Below are positions 3,623 to 47,242 of a stretch of 47,344 nt of DNA, in pieces. The notes beneath the pieces are model-generated. The model did not search any database. It was not told the origin of the DNA and was given only the letters and a program-made list of their open reading frames with translations. The translations under genes were made by a program, and so were the position numbers. Positions within the stretch are counted from its first letter, which is position 1. Each line of letters begins with the position of its first letter. This stretch comes from a virus. The stretch covers positions 1-47,344 of IMG/VR virus record IMGVR_UViG_3300035138_000041. The stretch is one strand, 5' to 3'.

Positions 3623-5772
3623 CAGTCGTAGCCTTGATTTTGTAGAGCTCTAAAACGTGCGTTGCACGCTTCGATAGCTGGCACGGACCCTGATCGCGCA
3701 GCCCAGCCTGTGTTCTCCCACGCTTGGACGAACTCCGCTTGCTCGCGCGTAGGTTCGTTACCCCAGTCTGTAGTACCACCGCGTTCGTTCGCCCATTCCG
3801 TCACCCCATCTATGCGGTTCTCTTGTGAGCGTGTTACACGCTTGACGTCGAATCCGTGGCGCTCGCCGACGAGCCGCATAGCTTTGGCTTCTGACGGGGC
3901 TTCGCCGCGTTCTTTGCTATCGTCGTACCAATCAGGTTTTTTACCGGACCTATCGTTGCCGGAGATCCACGACCATTCACTATTAGCTGTGTTCAGATCT
4001 GTATCTCCGGCTTTGGTAGCAAGCAAAGCCTCCGTCTCTGCCGCAGCTTGTGCTGGGGAGATCTTACCATCCAAGTCCCCGCCGCCGCTTCCGCCACCCT
4101 TACCGAACTTCCCATCGTCTGCGCGGGGTTGGTTTGGGTTGTAGTCGAACGCTCGCATGCGAGCGGGCGCGGACGCCGTCGCAACCGCTTCCGCCTTCGC
4201 TTCGTTGCGCGCGTCGAGCTCATTGATCGTGAGCTCGTCACGTTCGTCGCCGAACGGTGGGAGGTTCTGCGCGCTGCGGGCTTCGCGGACGCGGACGACC
4301 TTCGCGACGTCGGTAGGCGCAAGCGTGACATTCGCGGCGCTGTCGTCACCGGCCGCGAGCGTCGGCGCGTGCACGCGGTACTCACGCGCGAGCGCCTGCA
4401 CGCTCGCTTGCGTGACCTCGAACCCGAGACGCCGCCGGCGCTCGATTGCTTCGTCAAACGCCTGCACGCGCTCGGCGTACTGCGATGCGCGTTGATGCGC
4501 GTCTGGGTCCGGCATCAGGTATTTGAGAGTCGGCGTGAGCGCGCTATCGCCGAAATTGATCGCGGTCCACGGCTCATAAAGTCCCGTGCGCAGCGCCTGC
4601 TCGATCGCGTCGAAGTCACCTTGCACCTTCGTGGTCGCGACGCCAAACAGTGTCGCGATGTCCACGCCGGGCGCCCCGCCGACGCTGCCGAGCATCGCGT
4701 CGGTGCCGAGGTAGATTCGCGCCGCAGCTTTCTCACGGTTCGTGATCAGCTCCGAGAAAACTTGCCATGCCGTCGAGCCGTTCGCCAGGAAGTCCGCTTT
4801 GGCTTCATGCGGAATGATCCCGGCGCTTGCGTCGCCTGAGGCGAGATCGCGCATCATATTGAGGAAAGCTTCGGCGATGGGCTCGACGTTGCCGTCCTCG
4901 TCCTTGAGCGCGACGCCTTCCGGCAGCGTGCCGACGATCTTCGCGAGTCCGTGTGCGCGACTCGTGCTCGCCCAATCGCTGATGCCCTCGCTGTGAGCGA
5001 AGCCCACGAACGAAGCAGGCAACAGCGCGGCCTCTTGTCGCCACGGGTGCGCGTTGAATTTGCGGAACACGATCCACTCGCCGTCGCCGTGCATGATGTC
5101 CACGCGCGGCCCGTTGAGCGTTTCAGTCTCGAGCACTTCGCGCGTCTGGTCCCAGCGCACAGCCTCGAGCGGCCATTCCGTGAGGCGCATCGACACGAGC
5201 GTGGGTGACGCTTCGCGCTCCACGCGTCCGATCGCGATACCGTGGTTCACGAGCGTCCCGAGGATGCCAGCGATCACGGTGCGCGGGACGTGCACTGACG
5301 CTGCGGCTTTGCGCGCCACGTTGCGCCCGCGGTCGCTGTTGTAAGGCTGCAGCTCTGTTCCGACCGCGGACTGCGGCGCTAGCCGGTTGTGATACGCGGA
5401 GTAGAGAGCGTCATTCATGCGCAGCGCGGTCGCAAGCTCGACCGGTCGCCGGAACACGCCGCGCGCCTGGTCCGTCCGCGCACCGCGCAGCGCTTCAAGC
5501 GTCCACGTCGAGCCGAAATACTCACGCCGCCGCGGGGCGGTCACGATCGCGCCAGCCGTCCGGAACTCGTCGGCGGTCCGCACGCGCGGGGTGATGCGGA
5601 GCAGGCGCTGCTCCGTTCGAGCGCGGATCGGCTGCCCAGCAAGCGCACGTTTGATTGTGCCAGGTGCGACCCCAGTTATGCTAGCGGCGGTGCCTATTCC
5701 TCTGGCGTTTACGCCAGTTTCGATTAGTTGACGATTCTGATCCGAAAGCGTTCGCGCGTTGTGGTCACCCAT
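3619..5772 (-). CDS. Portal protein with N-terminal helix-turn-helix and C-terminal extension
   Basis: Portal, 717 residues, resembling the Mu gp29/DUF935 group; it forms the dodecameric DNA gate and docks the terminase. Residues about 1-60 are unusual: TAASITGVAPGTIKRALAG followed by a basic stretch reads as a lambda-repressor-type helix-turn-helix. The portal core follows (about 75-500; VELATALRMNDALYSAYHNR, AHPWRQEAALLPASF). Near residue 570 comes QPRADDGKFGKGG, a linker type common in phage head proteins, then about 130 polar residues of unknown function with lower-GC codons. The ATG lies 6 nt after TACAAT, so the mRNA may be leaderless. Portal identity is firm from context; the DNA-binding role is inferred. 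Confidence 0.85.
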   Translation of the reverse strand: MGDHNARTLSDQNRQLIETGVNARGIGTAASITGVAPGTIKRALAGQPIRARTEQRLLRITPRVRTADEFRTAGAIVTAPRRREYFGSTWTLEALRGARTDQARGVFRRPVELATALRMNDALYSAYHNRLAPQSAVGTELQPYNSDRGRNVARKAAASVHVPRTVIAGILGTLVNHGIAIGRVEREASPTLVSMRLTEWPLEAVRWDQTREVLETETLNGPRVDIMHGDGEWIVFRKFNAHPWRQEAALLPASFVGFAHSEGISDWASTSRAHGLAKIVGTLPEGVALKDEDGNVEPIAEAFLNMMRDLASGDASAGIIPHEAKADFLANGSTAWQVFSELITNREKAAARIYLGTDAMLGSVGGAPGVDIATLFGVATTKVQGDFDAIEQALRTGLYEPWTAINFGDSALTPTLKYLMPDPDAHQRASQYAERVQAFDEAIERRRRLGFEVTQASVQALAREYRVHAPTLAAGDDSAANVTLAPTDVAKVVRVREARSAQNLPPFGDERDELTINELDARNEAKAEAVATASAPARMRAFDYNPNQPRADDGKFGKGGGSGGGDLDGKISPAQAAAETEALLATKAGDTDLNTANSEWSWISGNDRSGKKPDWYDDSKERGEAPSEAKAMRLVGERHGFDVKRVTRSQENRIDGVTEWANERGGTTDWGNEPTREQAEFVQAWENTGWAARSGSVPAIEACNARFRALQNQGYDW

Positions 5773-10905: not shown

Positions 10906-12872
10906 TGGCAACATTACCAGGCGCAACGACCACCGTCAGCGACACCGCGACCGCTATTGCATCCGGCACAGAGACTGTGTGCGTGTGGTCTCCGCAGCCT
11001 ACGCTCGCGGACGCGACTCCACGGCAGTACGGCTCGGCGGCGGCAATCTACGCCGCACACGGCTACGGCCCCGGCGTTGAGTACGCCGCGATTCACGCTG
11101 CGCGAACGCGCAAGCCGATTCTGTTCTGCGCTCTGCCGATTGCGACCGCAGGCGCCGTTGGGCGTGAGGACACGAGCAACAACACCGGGACGAGCGTGAC
11201 GTCGCTCGCGGCAGGCGGCGACGGAGTTCTCATCGAGCATGATGGCGAGATCACGGTCGTCACGGGCGGCACGATCGGAACCGATCAGATCGTTCTGGAC
11301 CTGTCGCTCGACGGCGGGCGAACGACGAAGCGTGTACGGCTCGGGACGGCGAGCAGCTACGTGATCCCATACGTGGGTGTAACCGTCTCGTTCGCGGCTG
11401 GAACGCTTGTGGCGGGCGATGTGATTCACACGTGGCACGGCTCTGGGCCGCGCAGCAACAGCGCTGGGTGGGCGCTTGCGCGCGCTGCGATGGCAGCGCA
11501 GCAAAAGCAGTGCCGCTCGATCGTGCTCTGCGGCGACCTACAGAACAGCACTGAGGCGCTTGCGTTCAACACGCAGCTGGACACATACGAGAGCTCGAAC
11601 GAGCGCTTCGTGTACGGCCGCGCGAGCGTGCTCGAGCGCTTGCCGCTCGCTGCGCTTAGCAGCACGTCACACTCGATGACCGGCGGCCCGAACGTGACGT
11701 TCGCCGAAGTCGGTGCCACAGGCGACACGATCGTGCGTAGCGCCGGCTCGTGGGTGACCGACGGGTTCGCTACCGGTGATATCGTCACGATCAGTGGCAG
11801 CGCGAGCAACGACCTCACAACCGCCGCGACGGTCACTGTCACGGACGCTACGACGATCACGCTCGACACCGACGACCTCGCCGACGAGGGGCCGGTGGGC
11901 AGCGTGACGATCACAGGCGAAGCTTCGCTCACGTTCAGCGACGCGAACGACGAGATCACGCGCGCCGGCGGCAGCCCGGGCTCGTGGCTCGACGACGGGT
12001 TCCGCATCGGTGACTCGATCACGATCACCGGCACGAGCAGCAACAACATCACGACTACCGTCGTCGCCGTGACTGACACGGTGCTTGAGGTCACCGCCGC
12101 CGCACTGTCGGATGAGGTCATCGGAATCACGAGTGCAACGATCGTAGCTGGGCAGACCAAGGCTGTGTGGATGGCGGCGATTGATGCAGCGTTTGCGACG
12201 GTTGACGCGAAAGAGCGAATCGACTTGAGCGCCGGCCGTGGCCGGGCGCTGTCGCAATTCGCCGGGTGGTACTGGCTTTACCCCGCCGGATGGTTTGCCT
12301 CGTGGCGTGAGTATCAGCACGACGTTCACGTTGCGACGTGGCGCAAGAGCGACGGCCCCGTGGGCGCGGACCTGTACGACGCAGACGGCAACCTCGTTGA
12401 GTGGGACGATCTCGTTGATGGCGGTGCCGGTAGCGCTGCGCGATTCACGACGCTTCGCACGTGGGCGAACGGACCGCAAGGCGGCTTCATCGCGCTGAGC
12501 CTGACGCGAGCTAGTGACGCCTCGTTGCTCTCGCGCACGCATAACGTCGCGGTCGTCAACGTCGCGCAGCAGGTCTGCCAAGCCGCTACGGAAAACGTGA
12601 TTGGGCGCTCGCTCATCCTCAACGACGATGGCACCGCAACGACTGACAGCCTCAACACGATCAAGGCTGAGGTCAACTCAGCGCTTGAGTTGGCGCTGTT
12701 GACGAACCGCCTCGGTGAGGGCCAGCGTTGCAGCGCCGCGAGCTGGGAGCCCGCGACCGATGACATCCTGAACGTGCCGGAACCAACGCTCAACGGCACG
12801 CTAACGCTCAACCTACGAGGCACGATCCACACGGTCGCAACGACCATCCGCGTCGTGTCGGGAGGCCAGTGA
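10905..12872 (+). CDS. Contractile tail sheath protein with duplicated insert domain
   Basis: Tail sheath, 655 residues, larger than most because of an insertion. The N-terminal part (TVCVWSPQPTLADATPRQYGSAAAIYAAHGYGPGVEYAAIHA) and the C-terminal part (NTIKAEVNSALELALLTNRLGEGQRCSAASWEPATDDILNVPEPTLNGTLTLNLRGTIHTVATTIRV) are sheath-like. Residues about 263-412 hold two related ~75-residue beta units, each with SW-x-DGF-x-x-GD-x-I-T-I and a run of Thr/Ser, probably facing outward. The order sheath, tube, frameshifted chaperone, tape measure is standard for myoviruses. Confidence 0.85.
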   Translation: MATLPGATTTVSDTATAIASGTETVCVWSPQPTLADATPRQYGSAAAIYAAHGYGPGVEYAAIHAARTRKPILFCALPIATAGAVGREDTSNNTGTSVTSLAAGGDGVLIEHDGEITVVTGGTIGTDQIVLDLSLDGGRTTKRVRLGTASSYVIPYVGVTVSFAAGTLVAGDVIHTWHGSGPRSNSAGWALARAAMAAQQKQCRSIVLCGDLQNSTEALAFNTQLDTYESSNERFVYGRASVLERLPLAALSSTSHSMTGGPNVTFAEVGATGDTIVRSAGSWVTDGFATGDIVTISGSASNDLTTAATVTVTDATTITLDTDDLADEGPVGSVTITGEASLTFSDANDEITRAGGSPGSWLDDGFRIGDSITITGTSSNNITTTVVAVTDTVLEVTAAALSDEVIGITSATIVAGQTKAVWMAAIDAAFATVDAKERIDLSAGRGRALSQFAGWYWLYPAGWFASWREYQHDVHVATWRKSDGPVGADLYDADGNLVEWDDLVDGGAGSAARFTTLRTWANGPQGGFIALSLTRASDASLLSRTHNVAVVNVAQQVCQAATENVIGRSLILNDDGTATTDSLNTIKAEVNSALELALLTNRLGEGQRCSAASWEPATDDILNVPEPTLNGTLTLNLRGTIHTVATTIRVVSGGQ

Positions 12873-16138: not shown

Positions 16139-16344
16139 TGCGCGGCATCGTAATCCCAAAGCAGTGCGCAGGCAAAATACAGTTGACTTGCGGGCGTTGC
16201 GGTAAAACACGGACGGTTGCGCGCGAACCGTACGATCCGGCGAACGCCGTACTTTGCATCACTAACGAGTGCGATCGTTGCCACGCGGCAAGCGGCGGAT
16301 TCGGAGAGGCTTGGTACTTCGATGCGAAGGGGTCGCCCGCATGA
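16135..16344 (+). CDS. Zinc-ribbon small protein
   Basis: A 69-residue protein with CGRC (about 19-22) and CDRC (about 46-49), plus an extra Cys at 41: a standard two-knuckle zinc ribbon. It lies between tape measure and baseplate genes with four-base overlaps on both sides, so it is expressed with the tail proteins. It could be a minor structural or assembly factor. Such a zinc ribbon in a tail operon is uncommon and its role is unknown. Confidence 0.6.
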   Translation: MMRGIVIPKQCAGKIQLTCGRCGKTRTVAREPYDPANAVLCITNECDRCHAASGGFGEAWYFDAKGSPA

Positions 16345-16883
16345 CGCTCTCCCCGCACGCGTTCCCCGAGCTGTACTCTCGGATCAATCTCGGCGGTCGC
16401 TGGTCGCCCGGCGTTGTCACGCTCACCGGTCACGATCGCGATCAGGATTGGGACGTTCAGAAGGCGAAGGGGTCCGAAGGCGCCAGCTCGAAATACACGG
16501 GCGCCCCTGTCGGGCAGTTCCAGGCGTCGTTCTACCTCGCGGACGCGGACGACCTCGACGCATGGCCCGCATTCCAGGCGCTGATTGAGAGCACGACGCG
16601 CGGGCCCGAGCCGGTCGCGCTACCCGTGTTTCACCCCGATCTCAACGCGAACGGCTACACCGAAGTCGTCAACGGCGGCGTCGGGGGATTGCTGTGGGAC
16701 GGCCGCAACGGCGCGACGGTGATCGTCAAGTTTCTCGAGTACCGCCCGCCGAAGCCTAAGCCTGCCGCGAGTGCGACGGGCGGAAGCGGCGATGGCGCGA
16801 GCGAGAATGAGGAGCGCTACGACCCCAACCGAGAAGCGCGCGCTGAGCTACAGGGCCTGTACGATGAGGTGTCATCGCCATGA
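16341..16883 (+). CDS. Baseplate-region structural protein
   Basis: A 180-residue protein following the tape measure. The core reads YSRINLGGRWSPGVVTLTGHDRDQDWDVQKAKGSEGASSKYTGAPVGQFQASFYLADADDLDAWPAFQALIE, then a beta region (VALPVFHPDLNANGYTEVVNGGVGGLLWDG) and a charged, Pro-rich tail (EYRPPKPKPAAS). The position suggests a baseplate hub adaptor or tail-tube initiator, comparable to the LysM-type hub proteins of other myoviruses. The family is not recognised with confidence. It is the last gene before the 245-bp non-coding element. Confidence 0.55.
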   Translation: MTLSPHAFPELYSRINLGGRWSPGVVTLTGHDRDQDWDVQKAKGSEGASSKYTGAPVGQFQASFYLADADDLDAWPAFQALIESTTRGPEPVALPVFHPDLNANGYTEVVNGGVGGLLWDGRNGATVIVKFLEYRPPKPKPAASATGGSGDGASENEERYDPNREARAELQGLYDEVSSP

Positions 16884-16885
16884 CC

Positions 16886-17109
16886 GGGGTAGATCACGCT
16901 ATCACTAGCCTAGTGTGTGTGCGTCCGGGGCCCGGCGGGGAGAGTTACGCTTTGGCTGAGGTGTGCCCGGCCCGACGGTGCCGGCGCGTCAAACGACGCC
17001 ATAAGCGTAGCATACTCTCGTCCCCCTGTCAAGGGCGGGCTGTTAGGCCCGCCCGAGCGGGGCGACCCACGGGACCCCGGCGCGCACTGTCACGCGGAGG
17101 CGACGCCCG
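16886..17109. repeat. Non-coding structured element, copy A
   Basis: About 224 bp without a credible gene, inside an otherwise gapless tail operon. It aligns along its length, in the same orientation, with 46822-47053. Conserved blocks include GGGGTAGATC, ATCACTAG, GTGTGTGCG, GGGGCCC, CCCGACGGTG, CATAAGC, CTGTCAAGGG and TCACGCGG. Two stems show compensatory change between copies: GGGCGGGC/GCCCGCCC (17033-17040/17047-17054) becomes GGGTGGGC/GCCCACCC, and CGTC/GACG (16987-16990/16995-16998) becomes GGTC/GACC. A non-triplet length difference argues against coding. A regulatory RNA, promoter-leader unit or protein-binding site is possible. Confidence 0.75.
17004..17032 (-). promoter_or_regulatory. 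Leftward promoter candidate in element A
   Basis: On the minus strand TTGACA (17032-17027) is a perfect -35, followed after 17 nt by TACGCT (17009-17004). The same TTGACA with a 17-nt spacer is kept in copy B. Transcription here would run leftward, antisense to the baseplate gene ending at 16883, and I see no credible minus-strand gene to receive it. The -10 match is only fair. Confidence 0.4.
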
Positions 17110-17127
17110 CCACGCCAAGGGGGCACC

Positions 17128-18291
17128 GTGACGCTCGTCTCTCTCGCCGGCACGTCCGCGACGGGGCTGCGCCTGACGCTTCCCGCGTGGGGGCTGTGGT
17201 GGGCCGACGTCACGACCGAGGACGATGCTGGCTTGAGCGTCGGTGACACGGCCTCGCTGGACGTCACGGGCACCGCATGTGCGTGCGCCGTAGTCGCTGC
17301 CGGTGTCGTGGAGGGCCGCGGCGCGTATCGGCTCGTGGGGGGCGTTGGGGGCTGGGGCCAGACTGTCGTGCGTCGAGGCTATCAGGACGACCTGGGCGTG
17401 CGCGTTTCGACGGTGCTCAGCGACGTTGCGTCCACAGTGGGCGAGACGCTCGCGGACGTCCCGACGACACGCCTAGGTACGCGATTCGCACGTCCGGCGG
17501 GGCCTGCGTCTGCGGTGCTCGCGCTCGTCGCTGACCGGGCGTGGTACGTGGGGCTCGACGGCGTGACGCGATTTGGGGCGCGGGCTGCGAGCACGTACAC
17601 CGGCGACGCGCCGCGAACGCGCCTTGATCCAGCGGGGTCGATCGTTGAGCTCGCCACTGAGTCGATCGATGAGCTCGTGCCCGGCGTGAGCGTGGACGGT
17701 AGCGAACCCGCGACGGATGTTGAGTTCTCGCTTGACGGCGACCGCTTCACGGTGCGCGTCTACAGCGGCACGCGCACGTCTCGCCGACCAGACGCGTTGC
17801 AGCAGCTGCTCAACGCGCTCGACCCGCGGCGAAAATTTCGCGGTGCGTTCGAGTATCGTGTCGTCACCCAGGAAGGCGATCGCTTGAATCTGCAGCCTGT
17901 GCGCGTGGCGAGTGGGATGCCCGATCTGTCGCGCGTCGAAGTTCGGCTATCGGCTGGCATCAAGGCGCAGCACACGCTAGGGTCCACCGTCATGGTGAGC
18001 TTTGCAGACGCAGACCCCTCGCGGCCGTTCGTGTTCACAGGTGACGCAGCGGGGGCGCCAGGGTGGTCACCGACGACGCTCGATCTGCAAGGCACGAGCG
18101 ACGCGATCGCGTTGGCGAGTGATGTGGACGCGCGGCTCACTGACTTGCACGATGCGATCTCAGGCGCCGCCGTGCTAGGCGGCGATGGCGGAGCTACGTT
18201 CAAAACGAACATCATCGCTGCTCTGACTGCGGCGACCGCACCCGACCCCTGGCCCACGTCAACCGCAAGCTCGAAAGTGAGGGCCGTCTGA
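17128..18291 (+). CDS. Baseplate hub/spike protein (gp45/gpV-like)
   Basis: A 387-residue baseplate protein. The N-terminal two thirds are beta-rich with repeated VTGTACACAVVAAGVVEGRGAYRLVGG and YVGLDGVTRFGARA segments. Residues about 230-320 contain RKFRGAFEYRVVTQEGDRLNLQPVRVASGMPDLSRVEVRLSAGIKAQHTLGSTVMVSFADADPSRPFVFTGD, the OB-fold/spike-base pattern of gpV- and Mu gp45-like proteins. The C-terminus has KTNIIAALTAATAP. It would form the membrane-piercing centre of the baseplate. The start is a GTG directly after the non-coding element, without a strong ribosome binding site. Confidence 0.7.
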   Translation: MTLVSLAGTSATGLRLTLPAWGLWWADVTTEDDAGLSVGDTASLDVTGTACACAVVAAGVVEGRGAYRLVGGVGGWGQTVVRRGYQDDLGVRVSTVLSDVASTVGETLADVPTTRLGTRFARPAGPASAVLALVADRAWYVGLDGVTRFGARAASTYTGDAPRTRLDPAGSIVELATESIDELVPGVSVDGSEPATDVEFSLDGDRFTVRVYSGTRTSRRPDALQQLLNALDPRRKFRGAFEYRVVTQEGDRLNLQPVRVASGMPDLSRVEVRLSAGIKAQHTLGSTVMVSFADADPSRPFVFTGDAAGAPGWSPTTLDLQGTSDAIALASDVDARLTDLHDAISGAAVLGGDGGATFKTNIIAALTAATAPDPWPTSTASSKVRAV

Positions 18292-25873: not shown

Positions 25874-26058
25874 TTTCAAAGCACTACTGCACGTCGATTC
25901 CGTGTCCGCTATGCAATCCGGTGTGGACCGGGCCAACAGTTCCCCAGCCGGATGCGCGTAGCGATACCATCGTGATGCCGCGGGGGTGGCGACGGGTGGA
26001 CAGTTCCGGAGACTTACGAATCCGCGAAAACGTTTGTGTGTCGCGGGGGCTGTTGTGA
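25870..26058 (+). CDS. Small cysteine-containing hypothetical protein
   Basis: A 62-residue protein placed by four-base overlaps with the lipoprotein before it and the protease after it. CTSIPCPLCNP near the N-terminus gives three Cys in a knuckle-like spacing, followed by a polar region (PDARSDTIVMPRGWRRVDSSGDLRIRENVCVSRG). No membrane segment is visible. Function is unknown; its fixed place in a coupled trio suggests co-expression with the protease. Confidence 0.45.
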   Translation: MISKHYCTSIPCPLCNPVWTGPTVPQPDARSDTIVMPRGWRRVDSSGDLRIRENVCVSRGLL

Positions 26059-26948
26059 GGCGCCGTTTTCTCCGCAGCTGGTACTGGCTACTCGCAAAGC
26101 TTGGTTTCGCGCCGCTGCTGCTGGCTCTCGTTCCGCTGCTGCTTGCGGCTCGGTGCCAGCTCCCCGACCCTCCGCCCCCCGCCGCAACCGGCGGCTCAAG
26201 CACGGGTGGCACAGCGGCCACAGGCGGCTCAAGCACAGGTGGCACGGTCGAGTGCCGCTACCTCCCAAGCGGGCGCAGCGACGTCCAGCGGCAGGTCGTC
26301 TCGCGTGTCGTCGGTGGAACACCGGCGCCCCCCGGCGCGGCCCCGTGGATGGCGGCGCTCATGATCGGCGGGCACCAGTTTTGCGCCGCAACCGTGATTG
26401 GCGAACGCGCGGCGTTGACCGCGGCGCACTGTCAGGTGGACCCGTCCACGGACACGTTGCTCGTTGGAACGCAGGACCTGACCATCGGCGGGCGGCGCAT
26501 CGGGATCACGCAGGCGCGCAACCACTGGCGGTGGACATCGACAACGAGCGGGCACGACGTCTCTGTGCTGATTCTCGCTGAGCCTGCCGACGTGCCTGCC
26601 GTGCAGCTGGCGCGCGTGACACCAAACGCCGGGAGCGTGATCGTCTACGGCTGGGGTCGAACGTCCGAGGGAGGCCCGAGCTCGAGCACGTTGCTCCAAG
26701 CTCGGCTTCCTGTAGTGCCCTGGTTTTCGTGTTGGAACTCGTACCCGCTGGCACTCGACGACACGATGTTCTGCGCAGGAGCCGAGGGGCTGGACTCGTG
26801 CCATGGCGATAGCGGCGGCCCTGTCATGCTCGGCGCCGAGCAAGCCGGCATCGTGAGCTGGGGACATGGGTGCGCACGCGATGGCTACCCGGGGGTCAAC
26901 ACCGCGGTGGCGTCGGTGCTCGATTGGATCGCGGTATGCGCGCAATAA
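26055..26948 (+). CDS. Trypsin-like serine protease (S1) with membrane/secretion segment
   Basis: A 297-residue S1 protease from GTG 26055. Residues about 15-38 are hydrophobic (LLAKLGFAPLLLALVPLLLAARC), a signal peptide or anchor. Next comes a low-complexity linker (PPPPAATGGSSTGG), then the protease, beginning RVVGGTPAPPGAAPWMAALM. The triad is complete: TAAHC, GHDVSVLIL and DSCHGDSGGP. Asp six residues before the catalytic Ser predicts trypsin-like cleavage after Arg or Lys. Cys pairs are placed for disulphides, implying periplasmic or external action. Such TGG linkers are typical of Myxococcota secreted proteins. Confidence 0.85.
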   Translation: MRRRFLRSWYWLLAKLGFAPLLLALVPLLLAARCQLPDPPPPAATGGSSTGGTAATGGSSTGGTVECRYLPSGRSDVQRQVVSRVVGGTPAPPGAAPWMAALMIGGHQFCAATVIGERAALTAAHCQVDPSTDTLLVGTQDLTIGGRRIGITQARNHWRWTSTTSGHDVSVLILAEPADVPAVQLARVTPNAGSVIVYGWGRTSEGGPSSSTLLQARLPVVPWFSCWNSYPLALDDTMFCAGAEGLDSCHGDSGGPVMLGAEQAGIVSWGHGCARDGYPGVNTAVASVLDWIAVCAQ

Positions 26949-27741: not shown

Positions 27742-27814
27742 GCCCTGCATAGTTCAACGACTAGAACCCTCCGATAGTGCGGAGGCAATCTGGGTTCGAG
27801 TCCCGGTGCAGGGC
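27742..27814 (+). tRNA. tRNA-His-like gene with irregular anticodon loop
   Basis: Acceptor GCCCTGCA pairs with TGCAGGGC over 8 bp; read as G-1 plus seven pairs, this is the hallmark of tRNA-His (G-1:C73). T8 A9, D-stem GTTC/GAAC and a canonical T arm (CTGGG TTCGAGT CCCGG) are intact. The anticodon arm is not: CCTCC/GGAGG (27768-27772/27781-27785) encloses eight bases, GATAGTGC, or six if one more G-C pair forms. GTG (27777-27779) would be the His anticodon. The D-loop also lacks the GG pair. No CCA is encoded. It could be a frameshift-suppressing tRNA, a decoy or a decayed gene. Confidence 0.6.
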
Positions 27815-27822
27815 CTGAGCAT

Positions 27823-38002: not shown

Positions 38003-38289
38003 ACGTGATGATCATCGAATGGCGCGATATCGAATTCAAGATCGGTGAACACACGCAGCGTGCCGTAGCGGCCGATATCACCTTCTACCACGTGCGGACC
38101 GAGGGCGATTGCGTGCTCGCGAAGGTACCGCATTCAACAACGGAGATTGAGCTGCGATGCACAGGTGACGCTTGGGTGCGCTTCACCGCGGCGCTGCGCG
38201 CTAGCGAACGCCGCGCGTTGCGGCGCGGTCGGTGGAATCGACGAGCAAAGCGCGCGCGGCGCGCGCGACGACCCAAGGAGAGAACATGA
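37999..38289 (+). CDS. Small protein with highly basic tail
   Basis: A 96-residue protein: a beta-rich first 60 residues (IIEWRDIEFKIGEHTQRAVAADITFYHVRTEGDCVLAKVPHSTTEIELRCTGDAWVRFTAALR) and a C-terminal tail of Arg/Lys (RALRRGRWNRRAKRARRARRPK), suggesting nucleic-acid binding. The GTG overlaps the polymerase stop; ATG 38008 is an alternative. It may be a polymerase or replication accessory, by position only. Confidence 0.5.
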   Translation: MNVMIIEWRDIEFKIGEHTQRAVAADITFYHVRTEGDCVLAKVPHSTTEIELRCTGDAWVRFTAALRASERRALRRGRWNRRAKRARRARRPKERT

Positions 38290-39215
38290 GCGAGAAACGA
38301 GTTGGCGCGAATCAAGCGCACGTGCACATCGACGAGTGGGCGCGCGTTGGCGACGGTCCTCAACGATACGTGGGGCGCACGAACGAGGACATCGTAGCGA
38401 CCGTGCTCGCCTCGTTCGTGGAGGGGGTCGAGCGTTTGCGTGGCGAAAGCGCCTCGCTCGCCGCAGAGCGCGACGACTTGAAACGCAAGTGGACACAGGC
38501 TTGTGAGGACCACGGCGCCGCACTGCACGAACTCGACAAGGCCCGCGCTGAGCTTGCGACGCTGCGCGGCGAGCGCGACGACTTGCTCGAGCGCCTCACC
38601 AACGCCGAGGAGCGCAACGCGTCGCTCGCCACCGTAGTCGAACAGCTGCGCAGCGAAAGTGAAAAGCAAAGCGCCGCAAGCGCGGAGTTGCATAGGCAGC
38701 TTAACGCCGGTGCCGAACTGCTGCTGTTGCCAGGCGACCGCATCAGCAAGCACTTTGTTCCTGCAGTGCGAGAGCTGCGTGATCGCAACGCCTTGCTTGC
38801 CGCGGAGGTAGCGCGGCTGCGCGAAGAGCGTGACGAGTTCGAGCACAGCAGCGACGCCGGTTGGGCTGTTGTCCAGACAGCGCGCACGCAGGCGCGCGAG
38901 GCGCACGAGGAACGCGATGAAGCCCGCCGCGAGCGCGACGAAGCCCAGGCGCTCGCCGGCGAACTGCGCGCTGAGCTTGCGACGCTGCGCGGCGAGGGCG
39001 AGCCTGATGGCGAGCTCGACGCGTGCAACGCCCCCGGCCCTGCTGACGCCGTCGTGGACGCGCTCGAAGCCGTCGCGGACGCACGGGACTTGACACGCCA
39101 GGCGGTCGCGTCCACGGTCACGGACGCTGCCGAGTACAGCGTGCTCCAGTCGGTCGCGCTGCTGGGTAACGCACAACGCTTGCTCGAAGCGGCACGAAAG
39201 GCGGATGCGTCGTGA
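38286..39215 (+). CDS. Long coiled-coil protein
   Basis: A 309-residue protein, almost entirely heptad-type helix between residues 40 and 250 (VERLRGESASLAAERDDLKRKW, ELDKARAELATLRGERDDLLERL, EERDEARRERDEAQALAGELRAELATLRGEGE), then a shorter helical end. The ELATLRGE block occurs twice, indicating internal duplication. AAGGAG lies 6 bases before the ATG, one of the best sites in the operon. It may be structural, SMC-like without ATPase, or a scaffold for replication proteins. No enzymatic motif. Confidence 0.6.
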   Translation: MSEKRVGANQAHVHIDEWARVGDGPQRYVGRTNEDIVATVLASFVEGVERLRGESASLAAERDDLKRKWTQACEDHGAALHELDKARAELATLRGERDDLLERLTNAEERNASLATVVEQLRSESEKQSAASAELHRQLNAGAELLLLPGDRISKHFVPAVRELRDRNALLAAEVARLREERDEFEHSSDAGWAVVQTARTQAREAHEERDEARRERDEAQALAGELRAELATLRGEGEPDGELDACNAPGPADAVVDALEAVADARDLTRQAVASTVTDAAEYSVLQSVALLGNAQRLLEAARKADAS

Positions 39216-45460: not shown

Positions 45461-46131
45461 GACGCCCCCCGCTGACGCGCGCCATAGCGAACGCCGGCCG
45501 CAATCAACGCGCGCTGAGTCTCGTTGAAGCCTCCGTCGATAACCCAGCGTACCGTATGGCCGAGGCCCTCCTCATGTAAGAACCTGGCGATGATTCCAGC
45601 CGCCGCAACGTCCGCCCAGTCCCATGGCGCGCTCATAGGAGCCAAAGACCGCACCGGCGCCGCACCAGCAGGGGGCGAAGGAATCCCGGGTCGGAGGCCC
45701 CGCCCGATCCGGGCGTGCGCCCGTGCTGCCGCCTGGCGCGCGAACGCAGCGGCCCGCGTGAGCGCACCGCGAGTGCCCGTCGAGCGCGTCGGGAGACCCG
45801 CGGCGATACGTTCGGCGTGTTCAGCGGCGTCGAGCGCCTCGTGTTCAACCCCCGCGGCCGCGTCCGGCCACGCGACGAGCGCGTCCCGCCCGGCACTGTT
45901 CGCGGCCCACGTTACGGCCCACGGCTCGGACTCCTCAGCCCCCGCTGATGCCTGCGCGCGCAGCCGCTCCGCGTCCGCGTCTGCGGCCTCATAGGCTCGC
46001 TGTAACGGCTCCAGCGCATCGTGAGGCTGGCCAGCGAGGTTTCGATCGAGGGCGTCTGCGAGACGCTCAGCGGCAGCCCGAGCGCGCCGGGCGGCCTTGT
46101 TGCTTTCGGCCCACGGGTTGGTTTGCTTCAC
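45457..46131 (-). CDS. Ala-rich helical hypothetical protein
   Basis: A 224-residue protein. The GTG at 46131 overlaps the pentapeptide gene's stop. Residues 1-130 are helical and Ala/Glu-rich (NKAARRARAAAERLADALDRN, AYEAADADAERLRAQASAGAEE). Residues 160-224 are a compact end (APWDWADVAAAGIIARFLHEEGLGHTVRWVIDGGFNETQRALIAAGVRYGARQRG). No family recognised. Probably a cytoplasmic partner of the other two products of this operon. Confidence 0.55.
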   Translation of the reverse strand: MKQTNPWAESNKAARRARAAAERLADALDRNLAGQPHDALEPLQRAYEAADADAERLRAQASAGAEESEPWAVTWAANSAGRDALVAWPDAAAGVEHEALDAAEHAERIAAGLPTRSTGTRGALTRAAAFARQAAARAHARIGRGLRPGIPSPPAGAAPVRSLAPMSAPWDWADVAAAGIIARFLHEEGLGHTVRWVIDGGFNETQRALIAAGVRYGARQRGAS

Positions 46132-46808
46132 GACGCATCCCCCGCCACGATCCACAAGCGCTTAGTGCGTGCACCTTTCGCACGCGAGACAACGTGCGTC
46201 TCCTCGACACGCGCGCGGCAACGCACCAGCGGCGCGAATCTTAGCTCAAGCTCAGCGCGCGAGGCGAAATATATCCCCGGGTGACAGGAAGTGTCCGTGC
46301 AAACGCTCATCTCAGGCGCTTCGTAGGGTTCCTCGCGGGGCACGTAAACGGTTGCGCCGACAAGCAAGCTACGGGCTGTACGCCAGCCCCACACCCAGCC
46401 TTCAGCGTCGATTTCAAGTCCCGCCATCGCGATTGCAGTGTATGCGTTGCGCGGCAACGCTGTGGGGTCCAGACACGTTCCGCTCAGGTTGGCGCCGTAC
46501 AGGTCGGCACCGCGCAGGTCGGCACCGCGCAGGTCGGCGCGACGCAGGTTGGCGCCGCTCAGGTCGGCGTCGCACAGGTCGGCGCCGCTCAGGTTGGCGC
46601 CGCTCAGGTCGGCGTCGCGCAGGTCGGCACCGCGCAGGTCGGCGTCGCGCAGGTCGGCACCGCGCAGGTCGGCGTCGCGCAGGTCGGCACCGCGCAGGAC
46701 GGTGCCGCACAGGATGGCGCCGTTCAAGTCAGCGCCGCTCAGGACGGTGCCGCACAGGACGGTGCCGCGCAGGTTGGCGTAAGGGTGAATTCGAGGATCT
46801 GGGGTCAT
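46128..46808 (-). CDS. Pentapeptide-repeat protein with C-terminal domain
   Basis: A 226-residue protein led by GGAGA before the ATG. Residues 11-110 are twenty tandem pentapeptides of the A(D/N)LxG type (ADLRG, ADLRD, ADLSG, ANLSG), which fold as a right-handed square beta-helix resembling DNA. Residues 115-226 form a distinct domain (IAMAGLEIDAEGWVWGWRT, CTDTSCHPGIYFASRAELELRF, AKGARTKRLWIVAG), tentatively like the DUF5758-type domain found after pentapeptides in other phage proteins. Gyrase mimicry, as in Qnr/MfpA, is one possibility; a structural role is another. Heads a three-gene leftward operon. Confidence 0.75.
   Translation of the reverse strand: MTPDPRIHPYANLRGTVLCGTVLSGADLNGAILCGTVLRGADLRDADLRGADLRDADLRGADLRDADLSGANLSGADLCDADLSGANLRRADLRGADLRGADLYGANLSGTCLDPTALPRNAYTAIAMAGLEIDAEGWVWGWRTARSLLVGATVYVPREEPYEAPEMSVCTDTSCHPGIYFASRAELELRFAPLVRCRARVEETHVVSRAKGARTKRLWIVAGDAS
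46479..46778 (-). repeat. Tandem 15-bp coding repeats (pentapeptides)
   Basis: Twenty 15-bp units coding pentapeptides; on the plus strand they read as alternating CAGGTCGGC(A/G)(C/T)CGCG blocks. Several adjacent units are almost identical, for example at 46618-46690, so the array probably changes length by slippage. Long open frames on the plus strand here are by-products of the repeats. Confidence 0.85.
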
Positions 46809-46821
46809 GCTGGGTCTCCTG

Positions 46822-47053
46822 GGGGTAGATCGAGCGATCACTAGCATAGCGTGTGTGCGGCGGCGGGGCCCGACGGGTGCGGGTAGTAAGCTTTGGGTGA
46901 GCCGGCGCGCTGCCCGACGGTGCGGCGCGGTCAAGCGACCCCATAAGCTTAACATATCCCAGCGTCCCTGTCAAGGGTGGGCTACTAGGCCCACCCAGGC
47001 GGGCGTCCCCCGTGGCGCCCGGCGCGCGCACTCTCACGCGGATGCGACGCCCG
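46822..47053. repeat. Non-coding structured element, copy B
   Basis: About 232 bp aligned in the same orientation with 16886-17109. It lies upstream of the leftward pentapeptide operon and includes most of that operon's probable 5' leader. Stem GGGTGGGC (46975-46982)/GCCCACCC (46989-46996) and stem GGTC (46929-46932)/GACC (46937-46940) are the compensated counterparts of copy A. Most of the remaining sequence keeps short conserved blocks but has drifted with small insertions. Confidence 0.75.
46946..46974 (-). promoter_or_regulatory. Leftward promoter of the pentapeptide operon
   Basis: On the minus strand TTGACA (46974-46969), 17-nt spacer, TAAGCT (46951-46946). Predicted start near 46939 gives a 5' leader of about 130 nt before ATG 46808, most of which is conserved in copy A. 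The GC hairpin 46975-46996 abuts the -35 upstream. The -10 is weak, so an activator or different consensus may apply. Confidence 0.5.
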
Positions 47054-47172
47054 GCGTGGCGGGGGGATGGTCATGATCGGCGATACTCGTGCTCTGCGCG
47101 CGCCGGCCACAGCCGGTGGAGCGAGTGATAGCGCGCGCCGGGCGCGCGCTCGAGCAATCGCGCGGCGCGCCC

Positions 47173-47231
47173 GGGCAGAAATGCGAAGTGCCGCGCCTGG
47201 CGCCCCAGCTTGGGCAGAAATGAGAAGTGCC
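47173..47231 (+). repeat. Two right-end 20-bp direct repeats
   Basis: GGGCAGAAATG-C-GAAGTGCC at 47173-47192 and GGGCAGAAATG-A-GAAGTGCC at 47212-47231 differ at one base and start 39 bp apart. Related, more diverged copies lie inverted at 52-71 and 80-99. The 39-bp spacing (close to four helical turns) would put both copies on nearly the same DNA face. Likely binding sites for a phage protein. Confidence 0.65.
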
Positions 47232-47242
47232 TGCTGTGTTCA

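Follow-up and report, generated by a model that had tools for sequence, protein, structure and literature searches.

A duplicated non-coding element with a predicted promoter and a conserved fold in a tailed-phage genome

The window, i.e., the whole stretch of DNA analysed here, is a virus record of 47,344 bases that contains two copies of one element and no third. Copy 1 lies between two plus-strand tail genes, tail gene A (16269-16883) and tail gene B (17128-18291), and copy 2 (46822-47053) lies between a pentapeptide-repeat gene and the contig end. The region from 16880 to 17130 aligns to 46822-47053 on the same strand with 78% identity (E=1.0e-42), which bears out the original prediction of a repeat of about 225 nt in the same orientation. 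The aligned core is 224-232 nt long and corresponds to 16886-17109 in copy 1, whose insertion span is about 16885-17128. Both copies are crossed by open reading frames, one of 83 codons in copy 1 (16880-17131) and one of 89 codons in copy 2 (46807-47076). The frame in copy 1, on the plus strand, joins the flanking genes, with an ATGA overlap on the left and GTGA on the right. Although these frames are open, a coding gene was rejected: the substitutions between the copies are equally distributed over the three codon positions (14/14/14), so that the element is considered non-coding and the bridging frame to be free of codon selection, and a Pfam search of the frame in copy 1 gave no match. The element had been called non-coding with reference to length differences that are not multiples of three; the non-coding status holds, but that account has to be corrected in that open frames do cross both copies and the indels (2, 3, 1, and 2 nt) partly restore the common frame, which is regained over about two thirds of the element.

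Three related virus contigs, G001 (23 kb), G010 (49 kb), and G011 (14 kb), with about 30-64% amino acid identity, were located through the exonuclease (L003) and tail gene A (L037-L039). Tail gene A is 55-57% identical to its homologues in all three, and tail gene B 46-52% identical to those of G001 and G010. In G001 and G010 the two genes overlap directly by ATGA with nothing between them, while the G011 contig breaks off within gene A; the start of gene B in the window corresponds in position to that in G001. The element was found in none of the three contigs, including the remainder of the 49-kb G010, and the A/B junction therefore differs among relatives in presence or absence of the element. 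Because the tail genes overlap directly in two relatives, copy 1 is probably an insertion between them, with a start or stop retained at each side. For relatives as distant as these (about 50% amino acid identity) the direction, i.e., insertion in the window and not loss in the relatives, is something that we infer. Copy 1 is flanked by CATGACC and CGTGACG and copy 2 by GGTCATG on either side, a 7-bp direct repeat which is suggestive of a target-site duplication but not significant, as a shared 7-mer occurs in 8% of random placements. No transposase was found among the proteins scanned, which were a subset of the open reading frames. Two BLAST matches in the relatives, one in G001 (82% over 37 nt) and one in G011 (89% over 27 nt), are located in coding sequence and were dismissed as chance. 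Elsewhere in the window a trypsin-family protease domain (PF00089, E=1.6e-46) is encoded at 25986-26948, after the tail region of this contractile-tailed phage, ARAGORN lists a tRNA-like gene with undetermined anticodon at 27743-27815, and a long coiled-coil protein with internal 35-nt repeats is encoded at 38232-39215 in the replication half of the genome.

The pentapeptide-repeat gene next to copy 2 (46128-46808, minus strand; PF00805, E=2.5e-37) carries an AGGAG ribosome-binding site before its ATG at 46808. Near the right contig end, at 47174-47193 and 47213-47232, are repeats of the form GGGCAGAAATG(C/A)GAAGTGCC, and their complementary core TTTCTGC is found near the left contig end, at 63 and 91. 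These end sequences are operator- or iteron-like and could be brought together were the genome circular or permuted.

On the minus strand both copies carry a sigma70-type promoter sequence, TTGACA-N14-TGn-TAnGCT, which within the window is unique to the copies. In copy 1 (17004-17032) the -35 TTGACA at 17032-17027 is separated by a 17-nt spacer ending in TGC, an extended -10, from the -10 TACGCT at 17009-17004; in copy 2 (46946-46974) the -35 TTGACA at 46974-46969 and the -10 TAAGCT at 46951-46946 are separated by a 17-nt spacer ending in TGT. The spacers differ at 8 of 17 positions without any indel. Only two sites of the looser form TTGACA-N16..18-TAnnnT exist in the window, one per copy and both with TGn, and such a site occurred in 3 of 20000 shuffles of copy 1 and in 4 of 20000 of copy 2. 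Neither site is listed by a default promoter scan because that scan demands four of six matches to TATAAT, and the -10 has three. From sequence, both copies are predicted to act as minus-strand promoters. The copy 2 promoter is positioned about 130 nt before the pentapeptide-repeat gene which it faces, with a leader that ends in CAGGAG and then ATG, and copy 2 is the predicted promoter and leader of this gene; no minus-strand gene is evident facing the copy 1 promoter. When a 19-base version of the motif was scanned through IMG/VR, four unrelated viral contigs matched, and on inspection the matching sites look like promoters, each preceding a coding frame or a tRNA cluster. Two other viral contigs, L032 (at 11904-11937) and L034 (at 4459-4492), share a 103-nt block that is 99-100% identical and in which a hairpin (CCGCGAAGCGG) abuts a TTGACA promoter before different coding frames, making it another candidate portable promoter.

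The promoter is embedded in a fold that is conserved between the copies. Upstream of the -35 on the minus strand, and abutting it, is P5, an 8-bp GC hairpin at 17033-17054 (region shuffle z about -5) and at 46975-46996 in copy 2, where one pair has changed from C:G to T:A. P2 is a long plus-strand hairpin whose 5' arm (the X arm, 16934-16956; region shuffle z -3.9 on the plus and -4.7 on the minus strand) is complementary to the promoter template strand from the -35 to about +1, and whose 3' arm (16998-17030; z -4.9 and -3.2) is the template strand of the promoter itself. In copy 2 it spans 46872-46972, with arms 46872-46897 and 46940-46972 and compensated changes at 46889:46949, 46882:46958, and 46897:46940. 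The first of these is at position 3 of the -10, where the C-G pair 16948:17007 has become A-T, the partner changing along with the promoter base. The outer closing helix P1, also on the plus strand, pairs 16908-16933 (region shuffle z -2.6 on plus, 0.1 on minus) with 17072-17101 (z -3.1 and -1.1); its arms in copy 2 are 46844-46871 and 47014-47045, and pair 16910:17099 has changed from C-G to A-T at 46846:47043. Inside P2 are two plus-strand hairpins with weaker support, P3 (16967-16984; region shuffle z only -1.2) and P4 (16987-16998). Outside copy 2, the 25 nt at 47121-47145 are 84% complementary to 47015-47039 in the 3' arm of the outer helix and could be a competing partner; AGTGATAGCG in this region is present also in the minus strand of copy 1.

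The two-sequence consensus fold (RNAalifold) has a z of -6.0 on the plus and -4.5 on the minus strand, and none of 200 column shuffles of either strand reached it. When copy 1 was evolved in simulation without structural constraint to the same 25% divergence, the mean z was -0.60 (+/- 1.1) with a minimum of -3.93 in 30 runs, and other GC-rich stretches of the window gave a mean of -0.14 with a minimum of -2.66 (40 runs). Seven doubly changed pairs are kept in the consensus, where shuffling predicts 3.5, and 0-2 remain when the partner is slid by 1-3 columns. Minimum-energy folds of the single copies, cut to 16906-17104 and 46842-47048, both give P1, P2 with P3 inside it, and P5, and the fold plan persists with G-U pairs forbidden, while P4 is paired differently in the single copies and is a feature of the consensus. 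The two compensated pairs reported initially were recovered as parts of this larger fold: 17036:17051 in the GC stem does change from C:G to T:A at 46978:46993, and reading of the sequence confirmed the C:G to G:C change from 16987:16998 to 46929:46940, where 16998 also has an alternative partner, 16956, and 16956:16998 likewise changes from C-G to G-C. The claim of a selected structured RNA or DNA element and not a coding relic is supported, as the fold far exceeds that expected from neutral divergence and no codon signal is present. It was incomplete, since the minus-strand promoter and the probable insertion of copy 1 had been missed.

Similar arms may also arise without selection for pairing. 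Phage lineages gain and lose moron-type modules, and the copies could be two relics of inserted promoter-plus-gene modules of this kind in which template switching at quasi-palindromes has kept the arms alike. Template switching can alter both arms together, and nothing among the G010 hits matches the pentapeptide module. However, neutral descendants lose the fold, the observed changes, C-G to G-C and G-C to U-G among them, are found in five helices, one of which is the long-range P1, and promoter positions as well as spacing are intact in both copies, which makes this origin very improbable.

The covariation rests on two sequences, because no further homologue was found in any collection searched. 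Rfam gave no family match, with scores below the gathering threshold, and no homologue was found in 50,697 phage records or in 72,556 plasmid records, where the matches were of 28-34 nt only. Pattern scans of IMG/VR with three different conserved blocks returned zero matches, a covariance model of the core, run on 309 kb from related loci, recovered the two copies and otherwise noise, and a single GTDB pattern match, on a Halieaceae contig, was discarded as chance and not the element. Further homologues with covariation, by which the initial claim was to be judged, are missing from the Rfam, phage, plasmid, IMG/VR, and GTDB searches.

The plus strand folds better than the minus strand in every test, and a plain promoter does not explain that. 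The single-copy RNA z is -5.48 for copy 1 and -3.71 for copy 2, and the corresponding DNA values are -4.08 and -3.29 on the plus against -2.98 and -1.96 on the minus strand; the outer helix P1 is supported by region shuffles on the plus strand only. With the copy 1 structure as reference, doubly changed pairs exceed the null on the plus strand (9/11, P=0.03) and not on the minus strand (6/12, P=0.42). The preference is suggestive, not decisive, as the plus-strand excess is not significant with the copy 2 structure as reference (P=0.22) and the asymmetry of G-U against A-C is small (7 to 2). It is possible, if rather doubtful, that a structured plus-strand RNA, either separate or acting in cis in the tail mRNA, is the selected product and that the minus-strand promoter makes an antisense RNA regulating it, like the RNA pairs known to be under antisense control. 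The strand preference would agree with this, but plus-strand transcription over copy 2, where it would be antisense to the leader of the pentapeptide gene, is not evident, and no Rfam family corresponds to such an RNA.

Of all that was found, the relation between fold and promoter is accounted for least. P5 adjoins the -35, the promoter forms the 3' arm of P2, and the 5' arm of P2 falls in the part transcribed as leader. Taken by itself, this leader shows no conserved structure (z -0.66 on plus, -0.98 on minus), whereas the core straddling the promoter reaches -7.4 on the plus and -5.6 on the minus strand. As the conserved fold straddles the promoter, the promoter's own transcript cannot form it, a circumstance that also speaks for the plus-strand RNA just described. 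To form, the fold requires read-through RNA of either strand, or else DNA that is single-stranded or extruded. The DNA case has been considered in the form of a plus strand that, exposed at replication, folds the promoter into duplex P2 and is used by the host RNA polymerase for priming or early transcription, in the manner of plasmid single-strand promoters and origins. P2 does span exactly the -35 to about +1 with the promoter template as its 3' arm, the -10 change is matched by its partner, the DNA z values favor the plus strand, and the F plasmid likewise has two single-strand promoter copies (PMC9849209). On the other hand folding restores only part of the -35, around the spacer the two arms are unequal, and the virus has a primase/helicase-like gene of its own and no known single-stranded stage; reasoning from the Frpo gene order, the geometry is also opposite to what is needed, as transcription would start at the base of the hairpin and proceed into its loop. 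We regard such a role as unlikely. About as unlikely is the wider proposal of a tailed-phage element whose standard promoter lies within an intrastrand fold under selection. One DNA strand, when single-stranded, would then expose the promoter in folded form, as a phage single-strand promoter or priming site, and this could be copied to other positions in the genome.

With moderate confidence we read the element as a regulatory cassette, non-coding and portable, with a length of about 225-245 bp. The element has the look of such a cassette because one copy precedes a gene and the other splits tail genes that overlap in two relatives. This reading builds on the duplication, the promoter sequence, the conserved fold, and the absence at the site in two relatives, as these appear in the sequence, and it supposes that the cassette may move and that the fold may have a job. 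Two copies only, no link to a transposase, and no third homologue anywhere searched count against it. The working core would be a leftward, host-type sigma70 promoter with a perfect -35, an extended -10, and a fixed 17-nt spacing, bordered by the GC hairpin next to the -35 and by inverted arms pairing across the promoter. Copy 2, with its leader of about 130 nt, would drive the pentapeptide-repeat gene and probably also the genes that follow on the minus strand. Copy 1, inserted between the overlapping tail genes, would fire leftward and antisense to them, and plus-strand tail mRNA transcribed across it would contain the entire element as a very stable hairpin, while the in-frame bridge would keep translation across the tail-gene junction open. 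It is conceivable that the fold tunes or insulates either the promoter or the read-through transcript.

Three known systems resemble the portable cassette. The HK022 put elements are structured phage RNAs that act in the transcript just after the promoter (PMC9378689). The present element shares with them the structure, the occurrence in a phage, and the proximity to early promoters, but differs in that no conserved structure is seen in its leader (z -0.7 to -1.0), and on that ground the minus promoter was rejected as the source of a structured or put-like leader RNA. In number the two agree, as HK022 has two put elements per genome. Frpo of the F plasmid is a fold-dependent single-strand promoter present in two copies (PMC9849209). 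As with Frpo, there are two diverged copies in one orientation and a stem-loop that includes -35 and -10. In the present element folding would reform the -10 in P2 and the -35 only in part, with four of six positions pairing and G-T wobbles. The difference is that the double-stranded element already has a perfect contiguous promoter, and that this points towards the loop and not out of the hairpin to the 5' flank of the template.

The small mobile sequences of bacteria are 100-200 bp long, encode no proteins, and form stem-loops of the whole element; Correia elements among them carry sigma70-like promoters, the open frames of such sequences can be fused in frame with neighbours, and YPAL/RU-2 have internal repeats and are not AT-rich (PMC2229807, PMC10969869). 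The likeness to Correia/NEMIS, ERIC, YPAL/RU-2, and RPE is in a size of 100-250 bp without protein product, pairing of 5' and 3' parts into a whole-element stem-loop, an inner sigma70-like promoter as in Correia, open frames that stay in phase with adjacent genes, intergenic insertion, and, as in YPAL, internal inverted repeats in sequence that is not AT-rich. Like a MITE the element is short and encodes no protein, but it lacks terminal inverted repeats, as the P1 arms begin only some way in from the conserved ends, by about 22 nt on the 5' and at least 8 nt on the 3' side. It is not filed as a MITE because of this and because target duplication and parent transposase are unproven; it differs further in residing in a phage, in two copies, with the promoter inside paired arms. 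Small mobile promoter-bearing structured sequences have been described from bacterial chromosomes, and our literature search returned no clear phage case. If the element moves, phages can spread regulation without spreading genes, and pairing that is conserved across a promoter and not in its transcript would offer a concrete system in which to test for promoters that depend on folding, or for control through read-through RNA, in phages.
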